Below, piece after piece: positions 2,401 through 41,919 of a stretch of 54,996 bases of DNA. Source of the stretch: Geobacter sp. GTDB lineage: Bacteria > Desulfobacterota > Desulfuromonadia > Geobacterales > DSM-12255. The stretch is from positions 1 to 54,996 of the forward strand of contig JACRPV010000017.1 in assembly GCA_016223015.1 (NCBI GenBank), given 5' to 3'. Below the pieces are notes generated by a model, which saw nothing but the letters and a program-made list of their open reading frames with translations, had not been told where the DNA came from and did no database searches. Every line of letters starts with the position of its first letter. Position 1 is the stretch's first letter. A program made the position numbers and the translations under genes.

Positions 2401-3135
2401 TCAATGAGCAAGGGCATTGTCCAAGGCCCGATCAAGTTCAAAGCGAAAAGCATCAAAACTCGGCATACCAATACGACCGGGATCAATACGTCCTTCACGA
2501 ACCCACTCTGCAAGGTCTTCTGAAGACACTTGATCTCCTATAATTGCAGCAAGTTGCCTCTTTAATGAAATCGGGCTTGCATCGTTCCCCGATTCCTCTT
2601 CGAGGGCAGTACAGTGTGTATATGGATTATCCTTCAGAGCGCACATTAGCCATGCTTCTGATTTTGGTTTTGGCACCATCGGAGCGCCACGTTCAAACTC
2701 AGCATCCTTAAATCCATGAACAATGGAGTTAAACTTGTCTTTCCACAAACTGCGTGTAGACGAGTTGCTACCATCCGAATCCCGGAACAAAACGGTAACT
2801 ACTGGGCATTCACGTTCAGTTTCCAATTCCTTGGCCATAACTCCAAGTGCTTGAGCATTTTTTCTAAAGTAAATTGTATCCGTTTTAACTTTTTCACCAG
2901 GCAACCGTAGCGAACGAATTGCAGAGATACTTTTGCTTCTTACTGCCACTTCATGTTCACCAACAAACCGCACTGACCCATTATCAATAAGAGAGTAGTT
3001 AAGTTTTTGTTCTGCCAGTTGATCAATTATTACCGCCATTGGACCTGCTTTAAATTGAGCACCTTCACAGGGAGGGACTCCACCATAACAAGTTCCAATA
3101 TCACTTGGCCCTTCTCCACTCAGCAGCAACATCAT
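2401..3135 (-). CDS. DUF4276/TOPRIM-like protein, partner of adjacent AAA ATPase
   Basis: 244 aa; N-terminal LLLSGEGPSD.GTC acidic motif and PKPKSEAWLMCALK motif typical of DUF4276-like proteins; 4-bp overlap with upstream ATPase gene. Confidence 0.65.
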   Translation of the reverse strand: MMLLLSGEGPSDIGTCYGGVPPCEGAQFKAGPMAVIIDQLAEQKLNYSLIDNGSVRFVGEHEVAVRSKSISAIRSLRLPGEKVKTDTIYFRKNAQALGVMAKELETERECPVVTVLFRDSDGSNSSTRSLWKDKFNSIVHGFKDAEFERGAPMVPKPKSEAWLMCALKDNPYTHCTALEEESGNDASPISLKRQLAAIIGDQVSSEDLAEWVREGRIDPGRIGMPSFDAFRFELDRALDNALAH

Positions 3136-4292
3136 TGCTGGGCACCTTCTTGGCAGAGATCGCGCACAACGTCTTCCAGATAGGTATCAACAAAAACCTC
3201 GCCCGGACCAAGGGAGCTGAGTTTTTTGGAAGGTACTGGCAAATCAAAAAAGCGCCTAGCCTTGGTTGCCCCCCTGGAATCACGATAGAGAAGAATCACA
3301 GATTCCTTGGCAACTTCATCTGGTAAATAATTCAAAATCATCGGGCTATGAGTAGTAACAACCACTTGCTGCTCAATTGAAATTAGCGTACTCACCAGTT
3401 TGCCAATAAGTTCAGGATTAATGCCGTTTTCAATTTCGTCGAACAGAAGAAACTTATGCTCTGTCTGTGTCTGAGCTAGCAAGGTCAGAATACGCAGCAT
3501 TCCATCATTAATATGTCGGGCATCCGTCTCCAAGGGTCTTCTACTGCTATCGAGATAATCTTCCCGTACCAATAGTTTTTTCCAACCATAACGAAGTGAT
3601 TTAATGTCCCATTCATTCACATGTGGGTAAAACTCGTGTAGCTTTTCTAATAGATGTGCATTTTGTTCACCCTTGAATTGAGCAAGAAACGCTGATAATT
3701 TTTCACCGCCTCTCCCGACATCATCAGCACTTTTTGAACTTTGACGCATCAAATGAGGAGAAAGCATTTCCAGCGACTTCAGACTTTGCATAAATTTCTT
3801 TAAGGCTATCAGTGATTCATGATGATGTTCATGGAGTTTAAGTTGCGAGAGCACTGACCCTTGATAAGCAAAGTCAATGGATCCCTGCCTGCGTTCAGGT
3901 AAATACAGCTGCCCATCAGAAAGCTTGAGTACTGTTGTGCCACCTCCAATTTTTACCACTTCCGATGTACAGCGAAGTAAGTTAACATTGAATAGGCCAG
4001 CCCAATCAACTTGACCAACATTTGGAAGTTCAAGTACCACCCTAAAGGTTATCAGCTGCTTCTTTAATAGTTTGCTCGTCAGTTCGGCCTTTTTCCAGTC
4101 ACGTAGAGCAAGCCATTCCTTGGTTTGTCCCGTCATTAGCTGCCCGACAAAATCGAACGCCTGAAGCAGAGTCGATTTACCCGCACCATTTAGACCAATC
4201 AAGCAGGTAAATTTTGTAAGTTGCTGTGGTTCTGGTGGTAACGAGAAATCCACTAGTGACTTAAAATTATCAATATAAAACGACTTAATCAT
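3132..4292 (-). CDS. AAA family (OLD/AAA15-like) ATPase
   Basis: 386 aa; IDNFKSLVDFSL..GLNGAGKST Walker A, LLFDEIENGINP Walker B, VVVTTHSPMIL. Confidence 0.85.
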   Translation of the reverse strand: MIKSFYIDNFKSLVDFSLPPEPQQLTKFTCLIGLNGAGKSTLLQAFDFVGQLMTGQTKEWLALRDWKKAELTSKLLKKQLITFRVVLELPNVGQVDWAGLFNVNLLRCTSEVVKIGGGTTVLKLSDGQLYLPERRQGSIDFAYQGSVLSQLKLHEHHHESLIALKKFMQSLKSLEMLSPHLMRQSSKSADDVGRGGEKLSAFLAQFKGEQNAHLLEKLHEFYPHVNEWDIKSLRYGWKKLLVREDYLDSSRRPLETDARHINDGMLRILTLLAQTQTEHKFLLFDEIENGINPELIGKLVSTLISIEQQVVVTTHSPMILNYLPDEVAKESVILLYRDSRGATKARRFFDLPVPSKKLSSLGPGEVFVDTYLEDVVRDLCQEGAQQ

Positions 4293-6331: not shown

Positions 6332-6846
6332 GAACCCTCCTGAATATGCAGTACTGATTCCATCGCAAACTCAGCGCCCCATTCGCCAATGTGCCTGTCC
6401 GCCAACTGGTTCATTTCGTCGTCGGCCAGTGCGCCAAGTTCAGTAATCAGCCATGATGCCCTATCTCGGAGATGTTCCAAGTACTCAGAATCCAGCGCAT
6501 CAAGGAAAGCTGCTGATCGGTCGGTGGCAGCGAAATACACCCCTTGGTCTGTGTATCTACGTTCAAGAAGCCCCCGACTTTGGTATAGAAGCAACCCTTC
6601 CTCCAAAACACTACGCCGAACCAATAACTCGCCGCCCCGGTGTGGTGTCTGCGGATGAAGGCCCACAGGACCGCCAGGAATATCGTCTGAATGCACAACC
6701 AGGTAGTCAAAAACAACAAGCCGTTGCAGCGAATACCCGGCAGGAAAAGACTCGTTCAAAATAGCCAAAGCACGAAGCCCAATTTCAACAGGTCCATTGA
6801 ACGGGGTGCTGACACTCACTTGCTCGGCACTCGTCATTTCACCCAC
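6328..6846 (-). CDS. ABC-three-component system middle component (MC2-like)
   Basis: 172 aa; ALAILNESFPAGYSLQRLVVFDYLVVHSDDIPGGPVGLHPQTPHRGGELLVRR pattern; located between the ATPase and CTD genes with overlapping ends. Confidence 0.75.
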   Translation of the reverse strand: MGEMTSAEQVSVSTPFNGPVEIGLRALAILNESFPAGYSLQRLVVFDYLVVHSDDIPGGPVGLHPQTPHRGGELLVRRSVLEEGLLLYQSRGLLERRYTDQGVYFAATDRSAAFLDALDSEYLEHLRDRASWLITELGALADDEMNQLADRHIGEWGAEFAMESVLHIQEGS

Positions 6847-7910
6847 CTGACCTTCTTGTCATTTGCCAGCTGATGGCAGATACCTCCTCGATCAAGCACT
6901 GACAGTCTGGTGTTGAGCGCATGACCGGACAATTGAAGAGTCTTAGCCGTCTTAACGACTGCCATTACGCGGCGAAACCCATCCTCATGGGCTCCACGGA
7001 TCTCATCCTTGATACCACTGTGGACTTCTCCTTGAAGGATCTCAAATTCCCCTGGCGGCAATGTGTCACGCGAGAACACCCGCAGCGCTTCGGCGCTATA
7101 GAACTCAAGACGAGAGTCATCAAAATGCTCACGAACGTCAGGTTCTCCTGAAATGTCCCCAACTGCTGTAACATCCCGTTTCAAATGGTCGGCATATGCG
7201 TCAAGCAATTCACGGACGTAATTTGCCTCATAATCTGCAACAACTGCTGGCGGATGTTCAAATGATGATCTTACTGGAAGGCCACCTCCAAATCGTGCAA
7301 CATGCCAACGGGTCTTTGCGTGCTGTTCGATCAGCCTTAGCGGTGGGATCGCCTGAAAGATTGAAAAATCGAGGCTATTGATATACATCTTTAGTTGATC
7401 ATCCAATTCTACCGCTCCAGTTGAGCTTATACCGTTGCGGCAATACTTTTCCCAATTATCGAAGAGACCAGATCGAAGTTTGTCTGGTTTCTTTAAAAGA
7501 TTGGAGAGTCTGGTTCCGGCACCTTGTTGTGCAACGAAGTAGAAACGTCGAGGGTAGCTATAGTCCTTTCGATATGTGTAATAAACAAGCTTGCCAAGCT
7601 CTACCCATATGTCAGTCGGTGTTAAGCCATCTTTATAGTGCTTGCATTGATAGTTGTCCCAAACACTGCTGTCATTTTTGTCGTATGCAATAATGTCCCG
7701 CCCCATGTCTCCTGCGCCACCGCACCGTTCAACGAGGCCATAGTCATCGGTAAGCGAATGAGCCCATTCGAGAACAAATTCTTCCCATTGCCTGTCACTG
7801 AAGATCCGGATGCGCTCTATTGCCGGAATAGGGAGTCCCGTTACCACAAAATCTGCTGGCACTCCTGTTGGTGATGAAGGCTCTGTCAGCGGTCCTGTTT
7901 TGGTCGTCAT
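6834..7910 (-). CDS. ABC-three-component system effector: Mrr-like restriction endonuclease N-terminus + ABC-3C C-terminal domain
   Basis: 358 aa; N-terminal FVLEWAHSL..VERCGGAGDMGRDIIAY..DNYQCKHYKD (D-x(n)-QxK nuclease signature). Confidence 0.75.
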   Translation of the reverse strand: MTTKTGPLTEPSSPTGVPADFVVTGLPIPAIERIRIFSDRQWEEFVLEWAHSLTDDYGLVERCGGAGDMGRDIIAYDKNDSSVWDNYQCKHYKDGLTPTDIWVELGKLVYYTYRKDYSYPRRFYFVAQQGAGTRLSNLLKKPDKLRSGLFDNWEKYCRNGISSTGAVELDDQLKMYINSLDFSIFQAIPPLRLIEQHAKTRWHVARFGGGLPVRSSFEHPPAVVADYEANYVRELLDAYADHLKRDVTAVGDISGEPDVREHFDDSRLEFYSAEALRVFSRDTLPPGEFEILQGEVHSGIKDEIRGAHEDGFRRVMAVVKTAKTLQLSGHALNTRLSVLDRGGICHQLANDKKVRWVK

Positions 7911-7966: not shown

Positions 7967-8968
7967 TCAAACAAGTACACGCTTTCGATCCAATCCGAAG
8001 AAATCGGCAAGGACACCAAGCAATGACTGAACTGTTGAGGGCAAGGATGAAGGCATCGGCACTTCTATTCTGAACGCCGCAGCTTCAAGTTCGCGGGCTG
8101 TCTCAAAGAGCCCGCTCTGGGTTGCGGACTTCGAGAAGTACTCTTGCTGGCTGAGTTCGTGTTCTATAGTATCTGCGAGTCCGGGTTGTGAGACAACGCT
8201 ACCCACCAATGCAGCGGCCATTCGCCCAACCTTTTCTGTGAATGCTTTTCCTGCAACACCATATCTAAAGCCGCTGTCAAGAAGCACTCGTCGCTGTTCC
8301 TGTTCAATCGCTACATGCTCTCTCAAGATGAAATCGACTGAGACAAGGAAGTATGCACCTGTTACGTATACCATCCTCCAAGCAGGTGCAGGATTTGACA
8401 ACGATTCTTGTAATTGACCTAGGAAATACCCTATATCGTCAAGCCAAGCATTGCAGCCATCGAATGTAAGCGAGTCAAGAACACGTGATTTATTAGCTTC
8501 ATAACGTCCTCTCCAGTCGCCACCTAACTTACCTAAAGATGCTTGATCAAGCTGACTCAGAAGTTGCTCTTCAGAAATTCTCTGTAAATGGCTCCTGCTG
8601 CTGTGCGTAAGCCGGCTGAGAAATCTACCATCAAGCACCTTCACTTGATGCTGTAGACCAAACTCTCGTACGTCGGGTCTAACGTCAGTTGTAGCGACAA
8701 TACATCCATCAAGGTTTAATACTGATTGAAGTCCCTTTGCCCAAAATATTCTTTCCAATGCCTGTGGCGTTTTCTTGTTCTTGATGTCAACATTCAATCT
8801 CTCACGACTTAGGGCTGAGCTCCTCCCATAGAGCCACAAATCAATATCTGTCACATCGAATCGATTGAATCTGAATTTACTCCCTCTAATTACGAAGTAA
8901 CCAATACTCAGGAAATAGTTTCTGAGTGCCTCCTCAGCAGCAGGCCCCTTTAAGAGTTGTTCGCTCAT
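7967..8968 (-). CDS. Uncharacterised protein with PD-(D/E)xK nuclease-like N-terminus
   Basis: 333 aa; ALRNYFLSIGYFVIRGSKFRFNRFDVTDIDLWLYG...LNVDIKNKKTPQALERIFWAKGL; 4-bp overlap with preceding gene. Confidence 0.6.
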   Translation of the reverse strand: MSEQLLKGPAAEEALRNYFLSIGYFVIRGSKFRFNRFDVTDIDLWLYGRSSALSRERLNVDIKNKKTPQALERIFWAKGLQSVLNLDGCIVATTDVRPDVREFGLQHQVKVLDGRFLSRLTHSSRSHLQRISEEQLLSQLDQASLGKLGGDWRGRYEANKSRVLDSLTFDGCNAWLDDIGYFLGQLQESLSNPAPAWRMVYVTGAYFLVSVDFILREHVAIEQEQRRVLLDSGFRYGVAGKAFTEKVGRMAAALVGSVVSQPGLADTIEHELSQQEYFSKSATQSGLFETARELEAAAFRIEVPMPSSLPSTVQSLLGVLADFFGLDRKRVLV

Positions 8969-10218
8969 CTTGATAGCCCACCTTTTCTGATTTCACTCAA
9001 GAGGTTGCGTGCGCTCAGCTTCACGGCTTCTGTAGAATCCTTTCGTTGTACTTCTCGCGTTACCTCTGGATTTATGTACTCAGTCACCTTTGCTCCTGGA
9101 AGTTGGGGAATGCTCTCGCAAGTTATATCCCCGTCTTGAATTACAGATAGTGCCAGTCTCCCTACTTCTGGCTTCAGTAGTGACATTGTAAACATTCCAC
9201 CTGCTGTGGGTGTAACCTCTACAACCCCCTTATATTCCAATGCTTGATAGTCATTACCGATGGCCGTTGCTGGGCCAACTGTTCCTCCTGCTATTAGCTT
9301 ATTCATCAAAGCGGATATCATTTGGATTCGGCCTCGGTAGTAACTACTTACGGTCATTCCATAAGTTAACGATGCAACTAACGCCTTAGCCAGATCGAGT
9401 GCGTCGTCAGCTATTGAGTTTGTAAATTTTGAGAACGCAGCGGGGCGTGTTACAAAGTAGTTCTTGCCACTTTCATTCCCTACCACGCTGACATCGAACA
9501 TGCCAATAGAGTGCAACCTGGAAAACAACTCCTTTTCTAGTAAGTGTGTAACAGCCGAAAGAGGTAGGCAGCCAGATGCCTGAAGCTTGCTATTTAACTC
9601 AACAAGTAGACGAGACTCTTCTGGTTTAAGGGAACTCAAAACTGCATTTATCTTCTTTGCTTCATCACGCCTGAAAAGGTTACCGTTAAAGATTAATTTC
9701 TCCGTGGAAGATATGTTCTCCGAATCGAAGAAACCAATAGATCCACCAATTTGCAGGGTATTATTTACTTCACTGGTCGATAATTTGTATGTATCTGACA
9801 AATATTCAGCTGCGACTCTGTCAGTTACTGGTGATTCTGAAGCGATTTCGGACACATCTATCACTGCGTCTTCGTATGCTTCATGGTCAGACTCATCGAA
9901 GATCGTGGATGTATGCTCTAATACAGCCTGACCTGTCAGTCCCAGAACCTCAATGCCGCCAGGACTGCGAAGTATCAGTTTTTGTCTTTCAAGTTCAATT
10001 AAGATTGCTGGTGCTTCAGTTTTAGGGCTAATGTGGTTTGCCTTGGCAAGTGCATCCAGTCTTTTAGGCGTTATTTTAGATTGGCGTTCAGCTGAAATGG
10101 CTGATAACAAAGTCCCACACTTACCGGCGAAGCCAATAGCATCGAAATCTTGGTTTGTGGTCGCTTGAATTTTCCGGCCGTGATGTATCAGCCACGCTCC
10201 CTTCGTTTTCTTTTCCAC
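8965..10218 (-). CDS. Uncharacterised protein, translationally coupled to the nuclease-like gene
   Basis: 417 aa intact ORF with no clear family; stop overlaps the 333 aa gene start. Confidence 0.6.
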   Translation of the reverse strand: MEKKTKGAWLIHHGRKIQATTNQDFDAIGFAGKCGTLLSAISAERQSKITPKRLDALAKANHISPKTEAPAILIELERQKLILRSPGGIEVLGLTGQAVLEHTSTIFDESDHEAYEDAVIDVSEIASESPVTDRVAAEYLSDTYKLSTSEVNNTLQIGGSIGFFDSENISSTEKLIFNGNLFRRDEAKKINAVLSSLKPEESRLLVELNSKLQASGCLPLSAVTHLLEKELFSRLHSIGMFDVSVVGNESGKNYFVTRPAAFSKFTNSIADDALDLAKALVASLTYGMTVSSYYRGRIQMISALMNKLIAGGTVGPATAIGNDYQALEYKGVVEVTPTAGGMFTMSLLKPEVGRLALSVIQDGDITCESIPQLPGAKVTEYINPEVTREVQRKDSTEAVKLSARNLLSEIRKGGLSR

Positions 10219-10270: not shown

Positions 10271-13075
10271 CTAAGTAACTCTAAACACCTTCATAACCTC
10301 ATCCCCCAGGTGGTTGATAACCTTCACCGCAATCCGCCCGGTCTTTGGTTTATCGAACGGCCGGGAGGTATCACTGTTCAGTGACGCCCATGCGTCTTCG
10401 TTGATCTCTGCTTTGAGGGTAGTCTTCAGTGACTTGTACGGATCGTTTGCCCCGAGGAAGTAGGCATGGCGGACGAAGAAGCTTTCTTCGTTGTAGTCAG
10501 TGTCGATGAACCAGCAGGCTATGCCTTCTGCGCCGTCGCTGCGGACTTCGCCGGTGTTAGGGTGGAAGACGTCCACACCGTTGACCTTGACTTGGATCTG
10601 GCCACCAGCAACATCATTGATGTCGATATCCGGTTCGCCGAAGATGACGAACAGGTTGCCCTTGCCGGTGTTCTTCAGATCGTCAGCCATGTGCAGGTCG
10701 GCGTTCATGCGGGCCTTGAGCACTGGGATGCGGCCGAGTTTGTCGAACTCAGATGAATGGGCGTCGTAGTTAAAGGCGCAGGCAATCAGCACGTCGAAGC
10801 CGGCGTCGCCCGCCTCGCGGGCAGCGGCTACCAGATCAGGACGGGAGACAGTGCCGAACTCGGGGCCGATGAAGATGGCAGCACGCTTCTCAGCGCCAAA
10901 CTCCTCATAACAACCTTCACCACAGACCAGGTCGCCCGGCCAGGGGACGAGGGATGTGAACGTGATCTTGTCTTCCTTGTGGGCTTGCTGAACTCCGGCA
11001 GTCTTGAGGTTTTCCAGTATCATTTGGACAAAGTCCCGCTCCTTGCCGAATCCGTCCTGTTGTTCAGCAATGGTGTCGATCAGTTCGTCGTCAGCTCCTA
11101 CTGTCAATACCCGGTGCGGCGACAGGCTTTCAACGGTGAATGGCCCGGCAACGCGGACTTTTTTCTTATCTTCGTAAGGTTTGTCATAGAGGAATTCGGA
11201 TTCTGCCTTGGCGGCAATAGAGGCATCGATCTCCTTCTGTCGGGCTCAGAACTGATCCCACCAATGAGCATGAAGCTTCTTTGCTGCCTCAGACCAGTTA
11301 GCGTCGGCAGCACGGGGGAGTTCCCACTCTTCCCAAGACTTGTTTAAATCCTGATTGAGTTGCTGCCGCAACGGTTCCAGTTTTACCTGAAAATTCTCCC
11401 AGATGACGTCGATTTCGGCATTGTTGGCGATGGATTTGAGGGTAACGTGCGGTACCCGCTCATAGACAAACCCTTGTCGGATATCGCTACGTGTGGGTTG
11501 GCTGGACGGTATAGATAGAGTAGCTTCAGCCTCCTTCAGTTGACCGTCCTTTGAGTCGGCCAAAAGGTAGTATGAGTAGCGAGCACCCATAATCCGGGCA
11601 CGAGCAAGCGCCAAGGCAACTCGGGAGGTATCGATGGTGATCCAGCGGCGGCCCCATTGCTCGGCGACATAAGCGGAGGTGCCGGAGCCACAAGTGGGAT
11701 CTAAAACTAAGTCACCAGGGTCTGTGGTCATAAGGAAACAACGTTCAATAACTTTTGCACTTGTTTGGACAACATATGTCTTTGCGTCGATGTAGCCAGG
11801 TCTATTTGTGTCAGCCCACAGATTAGTAATTGGTTGAATAGGGAAATCGTCCATAAATCTGACATAACGAATGCTGTTAGTAGAACTTTCAATGCGCCAA
11901 GCTCTAGCTAAACGGTTCATTCCTGAGGCGGACGTCTTCCAATGAGCATTATGGCCGCAGTTAAACTCGCGACTTTCAAAGAAGAATTTTCCGCTGCTGG
12001 TTGCTGTTGAGCCTTGTGATGCTATCCCATCAAGTGAATATGGACGGAGATGTTCACCAGATTCGAGTCGCCTACGAATTTCGGGAACACCGAGATTCTT
12101 GCGACTACCATCTGGAAGTGCAGCACGCGAATGCGCCCATCCACCACCCTCTCGTAACTCTTTCTCCTGAAAGAGCTGACGGTATTTTAAAGTATTCTTT
12201 TTCTTTGCATACCAGATCAAGTAATTGAATATGTTACCCATATCTGAAGATGATTGTCCCCCTGTAGTTACAAATGGAATTAAGCTAATGCGATTTGCAT
12301 CGCCGAACACTTCATCGAGGAGCGATGTTATGAGGTGATAGTTCTCATCGCCAATCTGCACAAATATCGATCCAGAGTCATTCAACAAGTCTCTCGCAAC
12401 CGTCAACCGATCCCGCAAATAAGTTAGATACGAATGAATCCCATCCCTCCAGGTATCCCGAAAAGCTTTGACCTGTTCTGGCTCGCGTGTGATGTGGCCA
12501 GTATTGCCGTCCTTCACATCGCGACTGGTGGTTGACCATTGAAAGTTGGAGTTGAACTTGATGCCGTAAGGCGGGTCAAAATAGATGCACTGCACCTTGC
12601 CCCGCAGTCCCTCCCGCTCCGCCAGTGACGCCATAACTTGCAGGCTATCGCCCAGAATCATCCGGTTGGCCCAGTGGGCATCGTGCTGGTAAAACTCGGT
12701 CTTGGCGCTTTCATTTGGGAGGCCATTGAAATCGGCAAAGAGATCGAACTGTGACTCGGTCGCTTTCGCATCGGCCTGGGTGCGGCGCAGCAGATCATCT
12801 ATAAGCACCTTGGGGTGGACCTTTTCCTGGATGTAGAGCGGAGGTGCTTGCACCACCAAGTCTGACCAATCCTGCTCATCCTTGCCGCGCCAGACCAGTT
12901 GCGGGTCCAGGTCACGGTTACGCCGCTCATAGGCAATTCGCACCGGGCTTTTATCAGCATCGTGCATAAGCGACTGATGCTCGGCAGTGGGGATGTTTTT
13001 TCTGGTTGCCTCGTCGTGGGTGAGTGTTTCGACGGCTATCTTTGTTGGTGCTTTTGCCATATTCTTTATCCTCAC
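10271..13075 (-). pseudogene. Type III-like site-specific DNA (adenine) methyltransferase (Mod), interrupted by in-frame TGA at 11246-11248
   Basis: 609 aa ORF with YFDPPYGIKFNSNFQ and LVLDPTCGSGTSAYVAEQWGRRW; after the TGA the same frame stays open to 10271 with a typical Mod C-terminus (ARQKEIDASIAAKAESEFLYDKPYEDKKKVRVAGPFTVESLSPHRV...KVFRVT). Confidence 0.85.
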
Positions 13076-13083: not shown

Positions 13084-16000
13084 TCAGGCAGTTACAATTT
13101 CGATCATTTTATTGAATTCAGCTTCAACCCTGGCTTCAAAGTCAACCTCGATCTGGTAAACCTCGGTGAACTCGGCAAAGGCCCAGCGGCCATAGCTCTT
13201 CACGTTGTTTACCCCCGGCACCCAGTAGACATCCATGGTGGATTTCTTCTCCTTGGCGTCCTCCCGGCGATAACCCTTTATCTCGACGATCAAGTTCAGC
13301 AGATCGTCCTCGCCTTTGCCATCATCGACCTTCACAATGAAGTCGGGCAGGTAGCGGCGGGTTTCTGAGCCATAACGGTATGGCACTTCCAGACCCAGGT
13401 TGTGGTTCTTGACATAGGCTGTGACTTTGGGATGCGCCTCTGCCACGCGGCAGAACTCGGCTTCCCAGTCGCTGTCGAGGATGACCCAGTTGATCTGGCA
13501 ACGACGGGCATCGGTCTCCCAGCGATCCTTCTTGGAGGTGTTGAAACTCACATGGCAGGTAGAGCCGGTCGGGTTGTACGGGTCGAGCACTGCCTTTATG
13601 GGACGCTTGCCGAGTTCCGAGCGGGTGATGCCGGCGGTAATCCGTTCACAGGCCATGTCCGCAAGTTCCTGGTACATGAGCTGCGCCGGGTATGTCTCAC
13701 CTTTGCAGACCAGGCAGCTATCGAGCCACTCCTTGGTGATCCGTTTGAGCTGGCCAAAGAGATGGAGTTTGGCATCCTCGCCGGGGTCACGCCACTTGGT
13801 GTAGAGCAGGCGCTGGGTGACATGGAACAGAAGGGTTGAGCGGCGCATATCCCCCAGGTGTGCAAGACTGAGATCAACCCCTTCACCGATAATGCCTGAG
13901 TTTCTGGTGATGGACGGGCCGACCAGATCGGGAGACAGCTCCAGTATTGAATCTTCATTAAACACTGCGGTCAGTCGCTCCTCGGGCAGCTCTACCCGGT
14001 AACCGGCAACGCGTGGGAACTGGATTTCGAGCGGGTCACGCTCCGGACGGACAGCCTTAACATGAATGGTTTCACGGGGCGGTTGTGGCGCGGCCACCAC
14101 CGGTTTGGCAGTGAAGTCGAAGGGAATGCCCAGCACGTCGGCATACTCGACATTGAAGAGACCATCTTCATTCAGTTCGTAGGACTGGCGACGCAAGGCA
14201 CGGCCAATGACCTGCTCGCACAGCAGCTGGGTACCAAAAGCACGCACCCCGAGCACATGGGTAACGGTGTTGGTGTCCCACCCTTCGGTAAGCATGGAGA
14301 CCGAGACCACGCAGCGGATCGATTCACCCAGGCGATCCTTCTTGCCGACTGTGTTCATGACCTCGCGCAACAACTCTTGATCGGTAAGGTTTTCGGCCTG
14401 GCGGCGGTCGCCGGTACGCTCGATGATTTCTCGACGGAAGCGGTCGATCTCGTCAGCAGCCATTTTGCGGAAATTATCATCCAGGGCATCGCCGGATTCC
14501 AGTTGCTCACTGTCGATCAGCAGGGTACGGGGGCGGGCAATCTGATTGCCATGGTCATCGAAGTTGCGGAACAGAGCCAGACGGCCATTTTCCAACGTCG
14601 TGGAGCCGTCATCGTTCTCCCGCTGAAAACCGGAGATGTAGTCATACACCAGCTTGGAGGTGGAGGTGTTGTTACAGACAACGATAAAGCAAGGCGGGAC
14701 ATTGATTTTGTATTCCAGCCAGAGGTTGAACGTTTTTTCGTAATGGCCATAAAGTGCTTCAAGGGCAGTCTGGAGACGGACAGGCAGACTGAGAGGATCA
14801 AGATCCTTTGCCTTGCCCCGGCCTTTCTTAGGCATATCCTTGCGAATATGTTCCCACAAATTGCGGAACATTGGCATTTCATCGCCCGGCAGGTTCTGCG
14901 CCACCGGAACGCGAGGAAGTTTGACGATGCCGCATTCGATGGCATCCATGAGCGAAAAGTCACACATGGTCCAGGGGAACAGGGTGCCTTCGGCATAGCC
15001 CGAGCCACTCAGGAAAAACGGCGTTGCCGATAGGTCGATAACCCGATTAAGTCCCAGCTTGCGGTTGACGATTTCCAGGCCGGTAATCCAGAGGCGGGCA
15101 GCCTCGTTGTTTTTCTCCGCTTCCTTCCTGTCGTCGCCGGTCAGATCGTCATCATCGTCATGATTTGGCTTTTCGCGGTAACAGTGATGCGCCTCGTCAT
15201 TGAGTACCAGGACGTTCTTCAATCCCATCAGGTCAGGCATGACCCGCTGCAACATCTGTCCTTCGGTCTCCAGCGTGTTGAGTTCCTCGCCACCACGCCC
15301 CTGGAGCAGCAGTCGGCCACCTTTGGACAGCTCTAGCCGCTCACGCAGTTTGAAGGCATGGTAATTGGTGATGACGATCTTGGCCCGATCGAGGTCATCC
15401 AGCATGTCGCTGGGGACAATTTCGCGACTCTGGTAATAGCTGTCCGGATCGTTGGGTTGCAATACGCGCAGACGGTCTTTTATGGTCAGGCCGGGAGCGA
15501 CGATGAGAAACCCGCGGGTAAACCGTTTGCTGGTGGGGCGACGCACCGCATTGATTGTCTGCCAGGCAATCAACATCGCCATGACCGTAGTTTTACCGGC
15601 ACCGGTAGCCAGCTTAAGCGCTAGACGCATCAACTCGGGGTTGGCGTCATTGTTGGCGTTAGAAATATGCTCAAGAAAACCTTCACCAGTCTTGCCCATC
15701 TGCGGAGCAACTTCGGTCAACCAGATTGCCGTTTCGATGGCCTCCACTTGACAGAAGAACGGGCGGACGCCATTGAACTGGTGATGACGCCAGTGTTGCA
15801 GCAGTCTGGCGGTCTCCGGCGTAACCTTCCAATCATTCGGGTTCGGGATAGTGCGCCACTTGTCTACCTGGATTCGCAGGGCATTGATAATCGAGGTTGG
15901 ATCGTATTGCTGCTGCTGAGTGGAAAGACCTACGCCGTCGTCAAAGAGCAGATTCTGCTGGTCGGCTGCCGTGCCTTTGCGTTTTTTAGGTTTGGGAATC

Positions 16001-16137
16001 GGTGTGATGAACTCGGCGCGACGACGCTTTTCGAGAATCTGCTGAGTTGGTTGGCCCGAAGGATCAAGCTCCCAGTGACGGGCAGGGTATTCGTATGGAG
16101 AGTTGAGGATTGGCTGCTCGAAAAAACGATTATCCAT
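13084..16137 (-). CDS. Type III-like restriction enzyme Res subunit (DEAH helicase + nuclease; BPTD_3080-like)
   Basis: 1017 aa; LKLATGAGKTTVMAMLIAWQ, VLNDEAHHCY, VSMLTEGWDTNTVTHVLGVRAFGTQLLCEQVIGRALRR, C-terminal YLPDFIVKVDD..NLIVEIKGYR. Confidence 0.9.
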   Translation of the reverse strand: MDNRFFEQPILNSPYEYPARHWELDPSGQPTQQILEKRRRAEFITPIPKPKKRKGTAADQQNLLFDDGVGLSTQQQQYDPTSIINALRIQVDKWRTIPNPNDWKVTPETARLLQHWRHHQFNGVRPFFCQVEAIETAIWLTEVAPQMGKTGEGFLEHISNANNDANPELMRLALKLATGAGKTTVMAMLIAWQTINAVRRPTSKRFTRGFLIVAPGLTIKDRLRVLQPNDPDSYYQSREIVPSDMLDDLDRAKIVITNYHAFKLRERLELSKGGRLLLQGRGGEELNTLETEGQMLQRVMPDLMGLKNVLVLNDEAHHCYREKPNHDDDDDLTGDDRKEAEKNNEAARLWITGLEIVNRKLGLNRVIDLSATPFFLSGSGYAEGTLFPWTMCDFSLMDAIECGIVKLPRVPVAQNLPGDEMPMFRNLWEHIRKDMPKKGRGKAKDLDPLSLPVRLQTALEALYGHYEKTFNLWLEYKINVPPCFIVVCNNTSTSKLVYDYISGFQRENDDGSTTLENGRLALFRNFDDHGNQIARPRTLLIDSEQLESGDALDDNFRKMAADEIDRFRREIIERTGDRRQAENLTDQELLREVMNTVGKKDRLGESIRCVVSVSMLTEGWDTNTVTHVLGVRAFGTQLLCEQVIGRALRRQSYELNEDGLFNVEYADVLGIPFDFTAKPVVAAPQPPRETIHVKAVRPERDPLEIQFPRVAGYRVELPEERLTAVFNEDSILELSPDLVGPSITRNSGIIGEGVDLSLAHLGDMRRSTLLFHVTQRLLYTKWRDPGEDAKLHLFGQLKRITKEWLDSCLVCKGETYPAQLMYQELADMACERITAGITRSELGKRPIKAVLDPYNPTGSTCHVSFNTSKKDRWETDARRCQINWVILDSDWEAEFCRVAEAHPKVTAYVKNHNLGLEVPYRYGSETRRYLPDFIVKVDDGKGEDDLLNLIVEIKGYRREDAKEKKSTMDVYWVPGVNNVKSYGRWAFAEFTEVYQIEVDFEARVEAEFNKMIEIVTA

Positions 16138-17179: not shown

Positions 17180-20100
17180 TTACCTCCTTGTGCCTCGTGG
17201 CTGTGGCCCACCGCCTCTAGGGAGTGGCGAGGCTTTGCTCTGGTGTTGGAGAATTTTGCTGGTTCTTTGCATTTGCTGTTGTACATTTCGAGCTTGCTGC
17301 TCCGCGGTATGTGCTATCTCACGTTCTGCCGCGCTTGCAGCAGCATTTGCTGCTTCCTCTCGCTTTGTTACTGCAGCTTTATATGGGCCAACAGTCTTCG
17401 CAACATCCCCAACTATTCCAGCTGTCTCATGTAGAGCACCCTGGCCAACGGCAATCGTAGTGGCTGCCGCACCGGCATCAATCGAACGGCCATCCTTGAA
17501 TTCCTGTGAAGCCGCACTACCCGCCAGGTTCTGCCGCGATTCGACCCTTGTTCCGACCACCTGCGAACTCGAATAATCCGCCTTGACCCCGCCATCAGCA
17601 CGAACACTCCCGGTAATCCCACCACCAGATCTCGTACTGACCACCGCCGCCCCTTGCTGTGACATCTGCACAAACTGATCTTCGGTAATCTCGGAGCGCT
17701 GCCCGGCAATCAGATTCCCGCTCTTGTCCATCTTCCCCTGCACCTGGGAATAATGCAGGTTGCCTTCCTTGTCCTTGGCGTACATGAGGACGTTACCATC
17801 AAGCCCGCTGGAGAATGATCCGCCAACCACCTCCATCTTGCCGGTCTTATCGTTTTTGGCGTAATACCAATCACCATTGACCATCATTTGCTTGCCGCCC
17901 GCCTGGATCATGTAGCTACCGGACTTCCGTGAGACATTCAGGGCCTGATTCTCGTAGCCAGTCTTGATGAAATCACCGACCGTCTTACGCATCCCCTTGT
18001 CAGTAGTCGACACATTCCGATCCAGACGCTCGATATCAGTCCCGGTTCTGCTCTGACCGAGATCAAACTTCTGCACCCGGCCACCCTGGTCAATGGCAAA
18101 CGAGGCAAGGTTACCGTTCCGGTCGTAATCAGCCTTGTAGTCAAAGGCCTGACCAGACAGTTTGGCGACATGGGCAGCAGCACTCTGGAATCCGGCAGAG
18201 CGGAGCTGCTTCTGCAGTTCGAGTGCCTGTCCCTTGTCACCTTTGGCAACGGTGCCGGAATCGGACGAATTGACGATTCCGCCATCCATACCGACATTGA
18301 CAGCACTCTTGCCGTCAGCTGTCGTGAAGTTGATATTCTGTCCCTCCATCGCCTTTTGCATCTCAGCAAAGCCCCGTTCGGTCAGGTGACCGTCCTGGTA
18401 CATCTCCGGATCGTTCTGGAGTTGAGGAGCAATTCTACCGACCATCTGATCCGCTGCCGCGTGAACCAGCTGATTGCGGGCAATCCTCCCTGAAACATCA
18501 TTGCTGGTGAGCTGTTGGTAGTTGTCGTAACCACCGCCGGCGTAGATGCCCTGGATCTTGCCCCCGGTCTCCGTTGCTACGACACGGCCAGCTTCAATAC
18601 CTGCGGCTACCGGGCCTCCCATTTGATCTGAGAGTCCGGTTACCTCTGAGGCATGCTTGCCCTGCTGGAACAGCGCATTCATCTGCATGAGCTGTCCGGA
18701 AGAGATCCCGTAGGTATCGGCGATCTTGTTCACCGCATCGGCATTGGCAAAATCCCCCAGGGCGGTAACCTCAGAGCGCATGGCGTTGAACTCCCGCCAG
18801 TTCCCATTGAAGCCGAGAGACCTGGCTGCAGCGTAGGCTCCCATCTCTCCCTGCAGCTGACCTACGTTCTTGTCCATGTTGGCGGTCAGGAACCCGGCGT
18901 AGTTTTCACCGGCGCCAAAAACATTTGCCAAGGCTCGGTCATTGGCGACTCCCATGTTCGCGAAAGACTGAGTATCGCCGCCATAGCTGCCGGAAACCAC
19001 ATCCTTGGTCGCAGCAGACTTGTCGAGTCCCAGCCGGCCATCGAACGATTTTAATTCATACGAAGATGACAGGCCACTTTCCCGCATGGCCCTGCCGCTG
19101 CCGCCAAAACCAATGGATCTGCCCAGTTCGCTGTCAGCCGATATCCGGCTCGAAAACTCCATGCCGAAGTCCCGGATCATGTCACTGGAAGCAGTCGTCT
19201 TGCCTGACATACCGACCAATGACTGCGCCTGCCTGGCCTGGAAACTATGCTCGTTGCTCCAGGCCTGGGTCGGCATGGCTGTAACATTGCGCTGCATGGC
19301 CGAAGCTCTACCGGAAGGATCTTCAACTTCATGTGTAGCACGATTGCCTGCGGACTGAACCTGGCTGACCATCCCCCCGGCCATCATTGCCATGGCATGA
19401 CCACCGAACTTAATCAGCATCCCGGTGATGACCGTTGCCAGCATCATCCCGCTCATCCGGAGTGTGCCGAACATGCCGAGGATCTTCACGGTTTGATCCG
19501 GGAAGAAGTAGAGGGCATCCATGCCAAGCTTGTTCTGCCGGACCATCTCATAGGCCCGATTGGCATAGTCCACGGCAAACTGGTGGACGATGGCATCGGT
19601 AACTCCCCAGGCGGTCAACCAGATGAAGAAGCCGGCGATGATCCCGACGGCCTTGCCGATCAGCGGCGTTGGAATGAACAGTGCCAGGAACGGCAGCAGA
19701 CCGACGGCGATAGCGGTAAGCGCCGCCTTCAGGATCGGCAACCACTCGTTGGCAGACTTCATGGCACCGGAGGCATTGAGCAGGAACTGGTAGTTGGTGG
19801 CACCGGCAGCGTTACCGCTGCGGAAGATCTCCTCCAACCGCTGGGAGACGTAGGCCTGCTTCAGGAAATCGTCAATGCTCGCCGCTCCAAGGCCGGTGCC
19901 GGAATTGACGTTATTCAGCACCGTCTTGCACTGGACCATGGCAGCGGCATCGGTCACGTCATAGCCGAGATTGGCGCAGACAGATTCGATGTTCTTCCCC
20001 AGATTGGCCGGGGTGAGCGTCGCTTTGATGCTGGCCCAGGAATCGGTACAGGTGAGAGCTTGCCCTTGCGGATTGGCGGCATCATAATAGACCGTCCAGA

Positions 20101-20806
20101 TGGCAGGATTGACCGCCTTGTCCAGGGAACCGACAAAATTGGTTGTCGTCTTACGGAGTTCATCCACGGTAAGCCCGGCATTTGGATTCATCAGGGCATA
20201 GGATACGCAATCTTTGACGTAGCGCCGCATGGAGGCATCCAGATTACTGTCGATGGCCGTCAGGGGAATGCTGGTGAGCTGGGCGAGCCCCAGGAATCCT
20301 TTACCGCCGGCCTGAGTCTGGTAATTCAGGGGATCTCCGGCAGTGGTGACGATATCCACCAGGCCCCGTTCGATCTTGTTCAGGATGCCGGCTACTGCCA
20401 CTACACCATCCGGGATGCCGCCAACCGCCTGGTTCTTGTTGAATACCGGATCGTAGACGTGGATGGTTCCCTTGGGAACAACCAGGGCAAGATAGACCAT
20501 GATGCCGATCATGGTTGGTACGATCCAGGTCATGACCGAACCGTTGGCAGTACCAAGCGATTTGGCAAAAACCGTCACCCCGCCGAAGAAGAGCCCGGCA
20601 GTAATGACCACGAAATAGAGCGACTTGTAGGCGTTGTCACCGAAGATCAGCGCCAACTTGCTGAAGGCATTCACCACCGCGTCGTGACCACCCCAGACAT
20701 AGAATTCCATGTCCAAGGCCAGGGCCATGGATGGAATCAGCAGCAACAGTGCTGTGATGGCAATACTAGAAGTTGTCCGTGTCGACATGCACAACTCCAG
20801 CGGCAA
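17180..20806 (-). CDS. traG: F-type conjugal transfer mating-pair stabilisation protein TraG
   Basis: 1208 aa; N-terminal MEFYVWGGHDAVVNAFSKLALIFGD.. TraG_N domain with multiple TM segments and long hydrophilic C-terminus. Confidence 0.85.
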   Translation of the reverse strand: MPLELCMSTRTTSSIAITALLLLIPSMALALDMEFYVWGGHDAVVNAFSKLALIFGDNAYKSLYFVVITAGLFFGGVTVFAKSLGTANGSVMTWIVPTMIGIMVYLALVVPKGTIHVYDPVFNKNQAVGGIPDGVVAVAGILNKIERGLVDIVTTAGDPLNYQTQAGGKGFLGLAQLTSIPLTAIDSNLDASMRRYVKDCVSYALMNPNAGLTVDELRKTTTNFVGSLDKAVNPAIWTVYYDAANPQGQALTCTDSWASIKATLTPANLGKNIESVCANLGYDVTDAAAMVQCKTVLNNVNSGTGLGAASIDDFLKQAYVSQRLEEIFRSGNAAGATNYQFLLNASGAMKSANEWLPILKAALTAIAVGLLPFLALFIPTPLIGKAVGIIAGFFIWLTAWGVTDAIVHQFAVDYANRAYEMVRQNKLGMDALYFFPDQTVKILGMFGTLRMSGMMLATVITGMLIKFGGHAMAMMAGGMVSQVQSAGNRATHEVEDPSGRASAMQRNVTAMPTQAWSNEHSFQARQAQSLVGMSGKTTASSDMIRDFGMEFSSRISADSELGRSIGFGGSGRAMRESGLSSSYELKSFDGRLGLDKSAATKDVVSGSYGGDTQSFANMGVANDRALANVFGAGENYAGFLTANMDKNVGQLQGEMGAYAAARSLGFNGNWREFNAMRSEVTALGDFANADAVNKIADTYGISSGQLMQMNALFQQGKHASEVTGLSDQMGGPVAAGIEAGRVVATETGGKIQGIYAGGGYDNYQQLTSNDVSGRIARNQLVHAAADQMVGRIAPQLQNDPEMYQDGHLTERGFAEMQKAMEGQNINFTTADGKSAVNVGMDGGIVNSSDSGTVAKGDKGQALELQKQLRSAGFQSAAAHVAKLSGQAFDYKADYDRNGNLASFAIDQGGRVQKFDLGQSRTGTDIERLDRNVSTTDKGMRKTVGDFIKTGYENQALNVSRKSGSYMIQAGGKQMMVNGDWYYAKNDKTGKMEVVGGSFSSGLDGNVLMYAKDKEGNLHYSQVQGKMDKSGNLIAGQRSEITEDQFVQMSQQGAAVVSTRSGGGITGSVRADGGVKADYSSSQVVGTRVESRQNLAGSAASQEFKDGRSIDAGAAATTIAVGQGALHETAGIVGDVAKTVGPYKAAVTKREEAANAAASAAEREIAHTAEQQARNVQQQMQRTSKILQHQSKASPLPRGGGPQPRGTRR

Positions 20807-21506
20807 TCAGTTTGCGGTTGCGCCGCAAGGCAACCAGCATGGCGACAATCGGGATGATGATGAACACCGCCGTGGATACCACTACGAAGTATGCAGAGAT
20901 GAGAAAGATCCCCTTGAATCCCTGCACCCAGTAGTAGATCGAGGCGACCGTACTCGGCGAAGTCTTGGCGTAATAGAGCTTACCCACCGCCCACAGCACG
21001 TTCTTGTCGGTAAAGATCTTGAAATAGAGGAAGTGAAAGGCGATGAAAGCCAGTACCGCCTTGACAATGGCTCCGAAGACCATGCCGCCCAGGAGATTCA
21101 GTACCATCGCCCGGGTGTACTCACCGATGAAACAGGTAGAGGCCTTGGCCATGAAAATGGCGTACCCCAGCGAAAAACCGAGAGCCAGCAGGAAAGCGCT
21201 GAACTTGTCGAAGAAGGTGGGCGATGAATCACCGAACATCGGGATGTACTGCTCGATCACGCCGATGGCTACGGGGGTCAGCAGCGCTGAGACGATTCCC
21301 GACGCAAAGGAACTCCTGAATCCCACCTCCATGAATTCGAGCCGCTGCTTGGTGGTCAGGAAGCGAGCCTTGATTATGCAGCCGCCCAGCTCGTTGGCGA
21401 AGTTCTGATCGATGTAGGAGATCGCCTCCAGGAGCCCTCGTGGGTGGATCTCGTTGCTTTGGGGGATCGGCATTACATCCGGCGAGCTGTTGCTATCCTT
21501 CGACAC
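20766..21506 (-). CDS. Multi-pass membrane protein in transfer operon
   Basis: 246 aa with several TM segments, between signal peptidase and traG. Confidence 0.6.
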   Translation of the reverse strand: MSKDSNSSPDVMPIPQSNEIHPRGLLEAISYIDQNFANELGGCIIKARFLTTKQRLEFMEVGFRSSFASGIVSALLTPVAIGVIEQYIPMFGDSSPTFFDKFSAFLLALGFSLGYAIFMAKASTCFIGEYTRAMVLNLLGGMVFGAIVKAVLAFIAFHFLYFKIFTDKNVLWAVGKLYYAKTSPSTVASIYYWVQGFKGIFLISAYFVVVSTAVFIIIPIVAMLVALRRNRKLIAAGVVHVDTDNF

Positions 21507-21515
21507 TACGACCTC

Positions 21516-21767
21516 CTATCCCGTAAATGACCTGACCAGGTTCATGACCCCACCGCCATAGGCAACAATGGCGGCCAACAACAGGCAGATGGCGGCCAGC
21601 GTCGGGTTTCGCTGTCTCACCCCGACCCAGAAGGCTGACACCACCAGGGCGACAAAGAAGAAGCGTCCCCAGAAGCCATAGAGGAGCGTGGCAAAGAGCT
21701 TCTGCCAGAAGCCGGTATATTCCGCCTGTCCCATGTAGTGCAGCGGGTTGAGTTTTTCGATGGGCAC
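21516..21767 (-). CDS. Small membrane protein in transfer operon
   Basis: 83 aa, two TM segments, co-oriented. Confidence 0.55.
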   Translation of the reverse strand: MPIEKLNPLHYMGQAEYTGFWQKLFATLLYGFWGRFFFVALVVSAFWVGVRQRNPTLAAICLLLAAIVAYGGGVMNLVRSFTG

Positions 21768-21778
21768 GGCGGTTCCTC

Positions 21779-22291
21779 TCAGAAGATCGGGTCGGCTTTC
21801 GCCAGAATACGGCTCTTGTCGACAAAGCCGAAATATCGGGAGTCGTAGCTGTCCTTATGTTGCCCCATAACAAACATGAATCCCTTGGGCACAGGACCGT
21901 TGAAGGTAAAGTGTTGCAGCGGTTCCCCTTTCAGGGAAAAGTCCTTGGCCCGGACCAGGTACTCACCGTTGCAGAAGAACTTCTTCTCCACGTCGACGGT
22001 GAGCAGATCCCCCTCGTTGCAACCGATGATCTTCATCACATCATCCGATTTCTTGATCCCCATTCTGGCTGACAGTTCCTTGTGCCGGAACAGGACGTAA
22101 TCCCCGCGCACCACTTTGTCCGGGTACCGAATAAGCCAGTAGACCCGATGCGTGAGTGATGGCGTGAGGGTGACGCTGATCTTGTAGGGAAGCAGCGTCC
22201 CCGCCACGAGCAGGACCGTGATTGCCAGCCAGAGCCGCCAGTTGCGGAACTCAAGGTTTAACGGTTTCGGCATTGCGCACCACCGCGTCAC
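21779..22291 (-). CDS. Conjugative transfer signal peptidase, S26 family (TraF-type)
   Basis: 170 aa; SVTLTPSLTHRVYWLI catalytic Ser region, DDVMKIIGCNEGD catalytic Lys region, C-terminal MGQHKDSYDSRYFGFV. Confidence 0.85.
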   Translation of the reverse strand: MTRWCAMPKPLNLEFRNWRLWLAITVLLVAGTLLPYKISVTLTPSLTHRVYWLIRYPDKVVRGDYVLFRHKELSARMGIKKSDDVMKIIGCNEGDLLTVDVEKKFFCNGEYLVRAKDFSLKGEPLQHFTFNGPVPKGFMFVMGQHKDSYDSRYFGFVDKSRILAKADPIF

Positions 22292-22643
22292 CCATGATGA
22301 CCACCCGGTTTTTAGGAATGGCCGTGATGACGGTCTCCAGTCGGTCGAAACTCTTTTTCAGCTCGTCGTCATTCATCTTGCCGGCCAGGTAATTGTCCCG
22401 TTGCTGGGCGATGTACCCCTTGAGGTCAACGGCCACGATCTTCTGGGCATACCAGCGGTCATAGCCAACAATGGTGGCCAAAGATGCGCCAAAAGATACC
22501 GCCAAACAGAGCGCAACAATGGGGATCACTCCCGGTGGCTTTTTGGAATGCTCTTTTGGTAGCGTTGATGGTACCGAAACAGAAACCTTGCAATCGGACT
22601 GTTCATGTGAGGAGGTCGTCTCCATGCAGTTCCCTACATTCAT
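22251..22643 (-). CDS. trbI: Type-F conjugative transfer protein TrbI
   Basis: 130 aa; TM segment followed by VAVDLKGYIAQQRDNYLAGKMNDDELKKSFDRLETVITAIPKNRVVIMGDAVV. Confidence 0.8.
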   Translation of the reverse strand: MNVGNCMETTSSHEQSDCKVSVSVPSTLPKEHSKKPPGVIPIVALCLAVSFGASLATIVGYDRWYAQKIVAVDLKGYIAQQRDNYLAGKMNDDELKKSFDRLETVITAIPKNRVVIMGDAVVRNAETVKP

Positions 22644-22795
22644 TCTGTATGCTCTCTTTCCTGAATCAGATTTTCCTGTCCGGTACGATGAACAGGTCTT
22701 TATGTATATCCACTGGAACGATAAGCAGCGTTCATATTATTTGTTGCCATTTTGGCGTCACATGGTTACACTTTATTCCTGACAGGAGGTGTACT

Positions 22796-23077
22796 GTGGC
22801 ACATGCACGAGCAGAAGAACGAATCCCGGCACGGATGCCCACGGCGGTGTACGACCGTGTTGTTGAAGCCGCCCAGGCTGTTGGCGCTACGCTCAATCAG
22901 TTTCTGGTTCAATCGGCTCTGGAAAAAGCCAACGAGATTCTCGAACAGGAGCGTGTTATCAAATTGTCGGCACATGCTGCAAAGACCGTTTTCGACCTGA
23001 TGGATAATCCCCCTGTCCCTAACGAGCAATTGAAAGCTGCCATGAAACGTCGCGAGAAGGCCTTGTGCCCGAAATAG
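22796..23077 (+). CDS. DUF1778/TacA-type antitoxin
   Basis: GTG start behind GACAGGAGGTG; AEERIPARMPTAVYDRVVEAAQAVGATLNQFLVQSALEKANEILE ribbon-helix-helix; overlaps GNAT toxin gene. Confidence 0.85.
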   Translation: MAHARAEERIPARMPTAVYDRVVEAAQAVGATLNQFLVQSALEKANEILEQERVIKLSAHAAKTVFDLMDNPPVPNEQLKAAMKRREKALCPK

Positions 23078-23565
23078 AAGCCCTGTCAAAGCATCATGAC
23101 CGCACCGGTTTTGACTGCGGAGTGGTCGAGCTTAATGCTTTTCTCAAATCCACCGCACGACAGCATGGCGATAAAGGCATTTCCAGAACGTTTGTCCTGA
23201 CTGACCAGAACAGTCCTGCCATTATGGGATTCTTCACCCTTACCCTGTGCGAAGTAGTCGCGGTGAAACTCCCGGCCGCATATGCGAAGAAATACCCACA
23301 ACACGGTCTTCCTGCCGTACGGCTTGCCCGCCTGGCGGTATCACTCAAACATCAGGGCAAACGGTATGGAGAACTTCTGCTTACGGAAGCTGTTGACCGC
23401 ACCGCCTTGATTGCCGCGCAGGCCGGAGTCATCGGTCTGTTTGTGGATGCAAAGAACGATTCCGCTCGCACCTTTTATGAACGGTATGGATTCGTCACGC
23501 TGCCTGACCAACCCTTTCATCTGTTTCTACCGATCGATACAATTCGAATGCTCACCACCGGATAA
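23065..23565 (+). CDS. GNAT-family TacT-type toxin
   Basis: 166 aa; HDRTGFDCGVVELNAFLKSTARQHGDKGISRTFV..LARLAVSLKHQGKRYGELLL..FYERYGFVTLPDQP. Confidence 0.88.
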   Translation: MPEIEALSKHHDRTGFDCGVVELNAFLKSTARQHGDKGISRTFVLTDQNSPAIMGFFTLTLCEVVAVKLPAAYAKKYPQHGLPAVRLARLAVSLKHQGKRYGELLLTEAVDRTALIAAQAGVIGLFVDAKNDSARTFYERYGFVTLPDQPFHLFLPIDTIRMLTTG

Positions 23566-23579
23566 AATCCTGTCCCACG

Positions 23580-24548
23580 CTACATGCCAGAGAGATCTTT
23601 CAGAGAACGAGCCCCGGTTTCCCTCAGGATCTGTTCGAGCAGATATTCGAGGTTGGCATCGCCGTAGACGGTATGGTTCTCCGTAATGCTGGTGTTCTTG
23701 GCATCGCCTTCGCTCAGGGCGGTATCCTACACCTTGACGCCACGGGCATAGACAACAGCGGGCACCCGGTCGATGCCGTACCGTCTGAACAGCAGCGGAT
23801 CGACAGCCAGGCCGGCCGGCAGCATCTCGCACTCGCCATCTGCAGGATTGCACGACGCGTCACGTTGCAGCACCGATGCGATGAACCTGATGGTCGGCTG
23901 GATCTTCGTCATCCCCTCCATAAATCCACGCATGACCAGGGTAACGTTCGGATCACGCAAACAGGCCACCGAAGCCGCATAGTTCCTGACTGTCTGCAAC
24001 GGCATGGCCGATGAGATGAAGACGTAAACCCGTTCATCGCTGCCGAGCTTACCGAGAGCTTGAGTCTTGCTGTCCGGATAGAACCTGCCAGATGCATCCC
24101 CAAAAAGTTCTCCCGTTATCCGCTCCGTTTCGCTCTTCAGCCGACCCTGGAATTCCGGGGAACGATAGTAGGCGTTTAATGTTTCAGCCACCTGTTTCAT
24201 CTCGTGCTCGTCGGAATTGGCAGGGATTTTGAGGGTTCCGGTCATGCGGTTCGCACTGTCGAGCACCGCCGAAACCTCTGGAGTGCCCAGCGGCTGAGGC
24301 TGTTGCTCATTCCAGAGCTTCCCACCAACAAAAACCTTCACCCGCTGCCGGTCGCCGCTGATGACCGCCCGGCCAGGTTTGCCGGCACAGGTCCCGATGG
24401 CCTTCAGGTAGATGTTCTCCCCATCCTGGCGCTCCGTCTGGTAACAGGCATCCGGCGTATCGATGAACAGCTGCCGGGGATTGTCTCCTCGAACAACTGC
24501 GGGAATGGCCAAGGCGGCCAGTGTCAATTGAGTGCATAACCGACGCAA
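23580..24548 (-). pseudogene. trbC: Type-F pilin assembly protein TrbC with in-frame amber codon at 23727-23729
   Basis: 273 aa to TAG (RVYVFISSAMPLQTVRNYAASVA..LVMRGFMEGM..VDPLLFRRYGIDRVPAVVYARGVKV); the same frame continues to 23580 encoding DTALSEGDAKNTSITENHTVYGDANLEYLLEQILRETGARSLKDLSGM, a TrbC-like C-terminus. Confidence 0.8.
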
Positions 24549-25552: not shown

Positions 25553-26000
25553 ACCGCACCCTGAACTCGGACCCTTCGTCTGTAATGATGATTGCCGGTA
25601 CAGTGCTGTCGGTCGGATAGCGACCAATAGCCCCTTTGCCACCTTGAAGCTTTGCATTTACCTGGAACTGTTCGGCTGAGATGTCGCCCCAGTCGAAAGA
25701 GCGGAAGCGACTCTGCACCGCCAGAACCTTGTCCATGACCTTTCCGTCGACACTGAAGCTATCCATGACCCTGCGGGACAGGACAAACTGCTTGCCACGT
25801 TCTGTTGTTGCCGATTCCGATGCACCGCTGGTCAGTGCCCGGCCCGCCTTGGCCACCCAGTTGATTGGAGCAAGAATAGGTGCCGCCACGGTCGGCAGCC
25901 GGGTGGTTTCCTCAACAGTCGTCCAGGATTCGTGGGAGCAAGCGGCGCAAAGTGTCAGGATGCTGGCCATGGCGAGACATTGAGCTAGCAGTGGCTTCAT
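25530..26000 (-). CDS. Putative lipoprotein in transfer operon
   Basis: 156 aa; lipobox-like ILTLCAAC. Confidence 0.6.
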   Translation of the reverse strand: MKPLLAQCLAMASILTLCAACSHESWTTVEETTRLPTVAAPILAPINWVAKAGRALTSGASESATTERGKQFVLSRRVMDSFSVDGKVMDKVLAVQSRFRSFDWGDISAEQFQVNAKLQGGKGAIGRYPTDSTVPAIIITDEGSEFRVRYEDEPAE

Positions 26001-30021: not shown

Positions 30022-30027
30022 CAGGTC

Positions 30028-34435: not shown

Positions 34436-34438
34436 GCG

Positions 34439-41290: not shown

Positions 41291-41407
41291 CCATGTTTTT
41301 TTTCCAGAAAACAATTGGTTGGTTACGGGGTTATCAACACCCGGCTAATCATCTTTTAACCATTATTTAACCAATAAGTGGCGTCGGATTGACAGGGAGG
41401 AATATCG

Positions 41408-41725: not shown

Positions 41726-41779
41726 CCGCTGATTCCTTTTTCCTGAAAAAGCCACACCAACTGGGTGGTATCGCGTCTG

Positions 41780-41902: not shown

Positions 41903-41919
41903 ATCTGGAGGGTTCAATC

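Follow-up and report, generated by a model that had tools for sequence, protein, structure and literature searches.

Two overlapping genes of a Geobacter contig, here called A and B, make up what we on balance take to be a self-contained, horizontally mobile two-protein system against invaders, in which A would guide B to cut invading DNA. The window, i.e. the whole stretch of 54,996 nt that was analysed, holds them with these features:

8965 to 10218, minus strand: gene A, 417 aa, with about four tandem winged helices predicted; proposed recognition or licensing subunit
7967 to 8968, minus strand: gene B, 333 aa, predicted PD-(D/E)xK nuclease with a helical C-terminal region
8771 to 8935, minus strand: catalytic core of B, about residues 12-66, EE ... 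TDIDL ... VDIKNKK, from alignments, the span being derived from residue numbers
8965 to 8968, minus strand: overlap of the A stop and B start, 4 nt with an ATGA junction, from the sequence
8135 to 8175, minus strand: approximate site of an in-frame 10-residue gap in B, from alignment columns 288-301

The sequence-only reading had described two intact, overlapping genes lying between a type III-like R-M system and an ABC-3C system, and this layout holds: both ORFs are present at these coordinates, and the flanks are as described, the ABC-3C system being a Lamassu operon. A starts with GTG, shortly preceded by AGGAG, and B with ATG; the ATGA overlap is consistent with translational coupling, and in homologues the two genes overlap by up to 35 nt or are separated by up to 3 nt. 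Upstream of the pair are a type III-like methyltransferase gene and a BPTD_3080-type restriction gene (13084-16137); downstream are LmuA-LmuC-LmuB (Lamassu, equivalent to ABC-3C CTD6/MC2), then PDC-M25A and PDC-M25B.

Some peculiarities of the window can be listed separately: (i) An in-frame stop at 11246-11248 (minus strand) breaks the methyltransferase gene adjoining the pair, whose reading frame runs on past it to 10271; the ORFs of 609 and 278 aa are one interrupted gene, as supported by their coverage by the PADLOC profile PDLC03632, and it sits beside a restriction gene that looks intact. (ii) PDC-M25A and PDC-M25B form a candidate defence pair at 2401-4292, after the Lamassu operon. (iii) Further downstream of A and B, at 286-2361, lies what reads as a UvrD-like helicase with a RelE-like start, and a homologue of it is found near the pair in a Desulfuromonadaceae genome (L002, 3747-5843). 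(iv) F-type conjugation genes and replication/ParM-like genes were read at 17180-37135 and 40326-44769; they suggest that most of the window belongs to an ICE or a plasmid.

The case made for the pair depended on its being kept as a unit in other genomes, and it is so kept: all of the roughly 50 loci that were looked at, from eight phyla or more, have the two genes side by side in the order A-B. Neither A nor B was found by itself among these loci, except in copies that are decayed or lie at a contig edge. A search of genome contigs with B as query returned 28 loci, which belong to Pseudomonadota, Desulfuromonadaceae, Acidobacteriota, Bacteroidota, Ignavibacteria, Chloroflexota, Cyanobacteria and Planctomycetota, and A, intact or broken, lies immediately upstream in all 28. 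Searches with A added further loci, including plasmids of Vibrio, Mesorhizobium, Rubrobacter, Streptomyces and Rhodococcus, with B directly following it each time. The most distant A proteins are only about 22-29% identical (about 22% in Rhodococcus and Streptomyces); even there the gene that follows has kept the nuclease motif. Because these loci keep both genes in the same order with low dN/dS (approximately 0.014-0.10 in both A and B, in pairwise comparisons where it was estimable), A and B can be taken as real genes; as judged from the same comparisons, both are under strong purifying selection. Distance matrices of A and B across 41 pairs correlate with r = 0.97, which fits co-inheritance, as physical linkage predicts.

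The diverged Actinobacterial branch, with A 22-29% identical, resides on plasmids (L033, L034, L035, L036 and L037); the copy on pRZP5 lies between conjugation genes and a MobF relaxase gene. The idea that Actinobacterial A works with a different effector was rejected, as its partners keep the TDxD ... (D/E)xK motif.

No third gene common across the loci was found, and the unit is two genes only. Membership in the neighbouring R-M or Lamassu operon was considered for the pair and rejected, because no neighbour gene is conserved across loci.

The pair is rare and patchy: it occurs in 3/277, 3/369 and 2/395 genomes of three class-level samples (roughly 0.5-1%), each of which was built around a genome in which the pair was already known, this genome being counted, and one of the 3/369 is a weak fragment. 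A match at L047 was too weak and fragmentary to be counted. The pair is horizontally mobile and travels between very distant bacteria: it is located on plasmids, integrative elements and chromosomes, also on IMG/VR contigs, and a Pseudomonas and a Stenotrophomonas copy share 96% nucleotide identity. Among 50,697 phage records, no homologue was found. The complete intact pair is present in 22 of 5,426 E. coli genomes, and the E. coli integrative elements that carry it have an integrase or a relaxase. In strain W2-5, the two proteins are WP_023142848 and WP_023142847, encoded at NZ_CP032989.1:1736439-1738743. The copies of one E. coli group lie at tRNA-Pro next to yejM, between an upstream integrase and a downstream ABC-3C system. 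A second group (L066, L070, L072) lies beside hxsABCD radical-SAM His-Xaa-Ser genes together with DUF6119 or TIGR04141 genes.

Such locations raise the question of whether A and B serve the mobile elements themselves, in plasmid or ICE competition, in exclusion or in the processing of element DNA, rather than in phage defence. Besides carriage on plasmids and integrative elements, and the F-type transfer genes of the window, this idea can draw on the integrase found close upstream in the E. coli tRNA-Pro copies, in Brenneria and in L030. We nevertheless think it improbable, since no single integrase or relaxase is constantly linked to the pair and many copies stand beside unrelated defence systems without transfer genes.

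Proximity to defence genes, on which the sequence-only reading had based its proposal of a defence function, was evaluated at 27 non-redundant loci, the window excluded (26 from genome contigs, plus L030). At 13 of these, a PADLOC-matching defence or R-M gene lies within 4 kb of the pair: Gabija (L016, L022), Lamassu LmuB (L005, L013), type I R-M (L020, L026), Hma (L028), Iet (L025), PDC-S06 (L029), PDC-M07A (L012) or type II methyltransferases (L011, L018, L023). With a mean of 7.5 neighbours of at least 100 aa per locus, only about 0.8 such loci would be expected, at a background of about 0.4% of genes that is a literature figure rather than one from matched control loci (about 21,700 genomes hold 301,372 defence genes, an average of 13.9 each; PMC9090908), and with PADLOC matches that include plain methyltransferases. 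Were 2% of all genes defence genes, 13/27 would still be improbable (P ~2e-5). About half of the loci have no recognised defence neighbour, and some lie among housekeeping or mobile-element genes. The pair is probably a defence system, with anti-phage activity suggested by this association.

The PD-(D/E)xK core that had been proposed for the second gene is borne out, with the right motif named. In an extended alignment of B, residues E12, D41, D43, K63, R73 and G79 are identical in 41/41 diverse homologues, and residue 61 is Asp in 38, the remaining three, diverged Actinobacterial members, having Glu. The E/D ... D ... (D/E)xK pattern of the superfamily is conserved, and by alignment B carries a complete site. 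Its AlphaFold2 model (pLDDT 84.5) displays the alpha-beta-beta-beta-alpha-beta core fold of the superfamily (H9-21, E25-34, E37-48, E56-63, H69-83, E88-93), followed by the helical C-terminal region. The nearest solved structures found by Foldseek are AF1548, MspJI, AspBHI, EndoMS, Can2 and Card1, and the best PDB matches are mostly nucleases with this core; the likeness is confined to the catalytic core, and whole-chain TM scores are low. Motif and model together point to an active metal-dependent PD-(D/E)xK nuclease, with DNA as its likely substrate. The window copy lacks a stretch of 10 residues, including a near-invariant Leu, that is present in homologues; because these conserved residues are absent, this copy of B may be impaired, though the family is not.

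Structure prediction and Foldseek, proposed at the outset for both proteins, yielded for A a winged-helix array. Its AlphaFold2 model (pLDDT 71.5) is built of repeated helix-helix-helix-strand-strand units, i.e. three helices with a beta-wing, assigned at moderate confidence, and the prediction for most of A is winged helices in tandem, about four as parsed from the secondary structure, at residues ~26-91, 114-177, 199-257 and 269-347. The best Foldseek matches are the tandem winged-helix proteins RPC62, ESCRT-II and ScpB, at low TM, and also MepR; these support the predicted domain type but not the overall arrangement. Against viral structures, Foldseek returned only generic helix-turn-helix and uncharacterised proteins, and matches of A to Pfam winged-helix profiles were all sub-threshold. 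The most conserved stretch, GPATAIGxDYxxLE, falls in the last predicted winged-helix unit. No NTPase domain was detected in A or B.

The first gene had been said to belong to no recognisable family, and neither A nor B reaches the cut-off of any family in Pfam, NCBIfam, PADLOC or PHROGs; sequence and profile searches of the PDB gave chance matches only. Nor does either match a named system, a point on which the sequence-only reading had also staked its case: PADLOC 2.0 profiles, including those for Lamassu, Gabija, Shedu, Druantia, BREX and DISARM, gave nothing at E 0.1, and diverged members of A and B gave marginal matches only. By these comparisons the pair is unnamed in profile libraries of 2023-2026.

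Across loci, no partner methyltransferase or ATPase accompanies the pair. Classical R-M was therefore rejected as its general mode: there is no linked cognate methyltransferase of the kind that type I, II or III systems have. A different possibility is modification-dependent, type IV-like restriction by a split Mrr or DpnI, with the winged helices of A reading a modified base and B cutting nearby. In EcoKMrr and DpnI, both modification-dependent, DNA is likewise recognised by a winged helix and cut by a PD-(D/E)xK nuclease, again with no methyltransferase partner required (PMC12707154), so that the architecture of the pair would be compatible with such restriction. The catalytic fold of B is nearest to AF1548, MspJI and AspBHI, as noted, and Mrr_cat appears as a sub-threshold Pfam match in a few B members, which was all that the Mrr_cat and Mrr_N profiles gave. 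However, EcoKMrr and DpnI are single chains with one winged helix and show no significant sequence similarity to A or B, whereas the pair consists of two proteins with a tandem array. B has D/E-x-K where Mrr and MspJI have Q-x-K, and sequence comparison revealed neither an SRA nor any other reader domain. Dam and Dcm marks are usual in E. coli. The pair coexists with them, and with nearby DNA methyltransferases elsewhere, so common methylation marks are unlikely to be general triggers. We regard type IV-like restriction as an unlikely account of the pair.

The favoured account, A guiding B, proposes the following. As a DNA-binding winged-helix array, A would bind B and supply target recognition or licensing, acting as an activator rather than an inhibitor; B would then cut invading DNA, of a phage or a competing mobile element, and spare the chromosome. 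EcoKMrr and DpnI, which unite the two domain types (PMC12707154), are a precedent for this account too. With no dedicated methyltransferase, A must take its cue from one of three sources: a structural feature of DNA, such as an end or an intermediate of replication or injection; a modification or sequence that the host lacks; or a protein of the phage.

A coupled gene pair that is carried by mobile elements and encodes a DNA-binding protein first and a nuclease second could also be a toxin-antitoxin module: B would be the toxin, and A would both inhibit it and repress its own expression. At five loci, A is broken with B intact, although three of them came from searches with B, which favour loci where B is intact, and some are draft assemblies. 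In Vibrio parahaemolyticus plasmid pHZ52-3 (L065), ISVa2 interrupts A at 6563-7483, and B is intact, with the same protein accession as in a sister plasmid; elsewhere A has stops (L012), is split (L015, G912) or is truncated (L019). These loci suggest that A probably does not serve to keep a toxic B in check. The proteins, of 417 and ~340 aa, are moreover large for a toxin-antitoxin pair, and we give that arrangement very little credence. Tolerance of B without A would fit A as an activator or targeting subunit.

Known defence systems share parts of this design. Shedu (SduA) also has a PD-(D/E)xK nuclease, works in defence without a methyltransferase and uses a separate recognition part to pick its target (PMC12904381), but it is a single gene with an N-terminal clamp, and its PADLOC models miss A and B. 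Lamassu/ABC-3C co-occurs with the pair at several loci, and LmuA of the window has a weak Mrr-type nuclease match along with CTD6; in contrast, Lamassu is driven by an SMC-type ATPase, A and B match no Lmu profile, and at most loci they occur without Lamassu. Gabija (GajAB), found next to the pair at two loci, resembles it in having two genes and a DNA nuclease. It differs in its enzymes: GajA joins an ATPase to a Toprim nuclease and GajB is a helicase, whereas no NTPase domain was detected in A or B. In the literature searched, the combination of domains and the two-protein layout are not described, while the domains themselves are of known kinds.

Whether the pair has already been described is a matter of novelty, compatible with its being a two-protein anti-invader system. 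It could be among the E. coli systems of recent machine-learning screens, absent from the 2023 PADLOC models. According to the main text and legends of the DefensePredictor paper (PMC13092281), 42 E. coli systems were validated from 69 strains, 13 of them with PD-(D/E)xK; at 22/5,426 genomes, the chance that a set of 69 strains holds the pair is about a quarter, so an existing DS number is possible. On the other hand, the pair is absent from that main text and those legends, its accession numbers were not found in the literature searched, and its E. coli genes were still 'hypothetical' in RefSeq records of September 2026. Literature searches, with supplementary tables of recent screens (e.g. 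DefensePredictor 2026) outside their scope, found no named match, and we rate prior description as rather unlikely.

A stronger version of our proposal, which we put forward tentatively, is that A and B are an undescribed, widespread two-protein immune system in which an NTPase-free tandem winged-helix protein recognises some structural trait that marks DNA as invading and in turn licenses a PD-(D/E)xK nuclease, allowing self/non-self discrimination without modification of host DNA. A pair spread across at least eight phyla, with its active site kept and with no methyltransferase, would need some other means of distinguishing foreign DNA from that of its host, and the predicted winged-helix array could provide such recognition in compact form. 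Its wide spread, and the fact that it can be tested at once in E. coli, add to the interest of the pair: with 22 complete genomes of this species carrying it intact, its function is quickly testable in common strains with panels of phages, and a profile HMM for each protein would enable annotation software to detect the A-B system.
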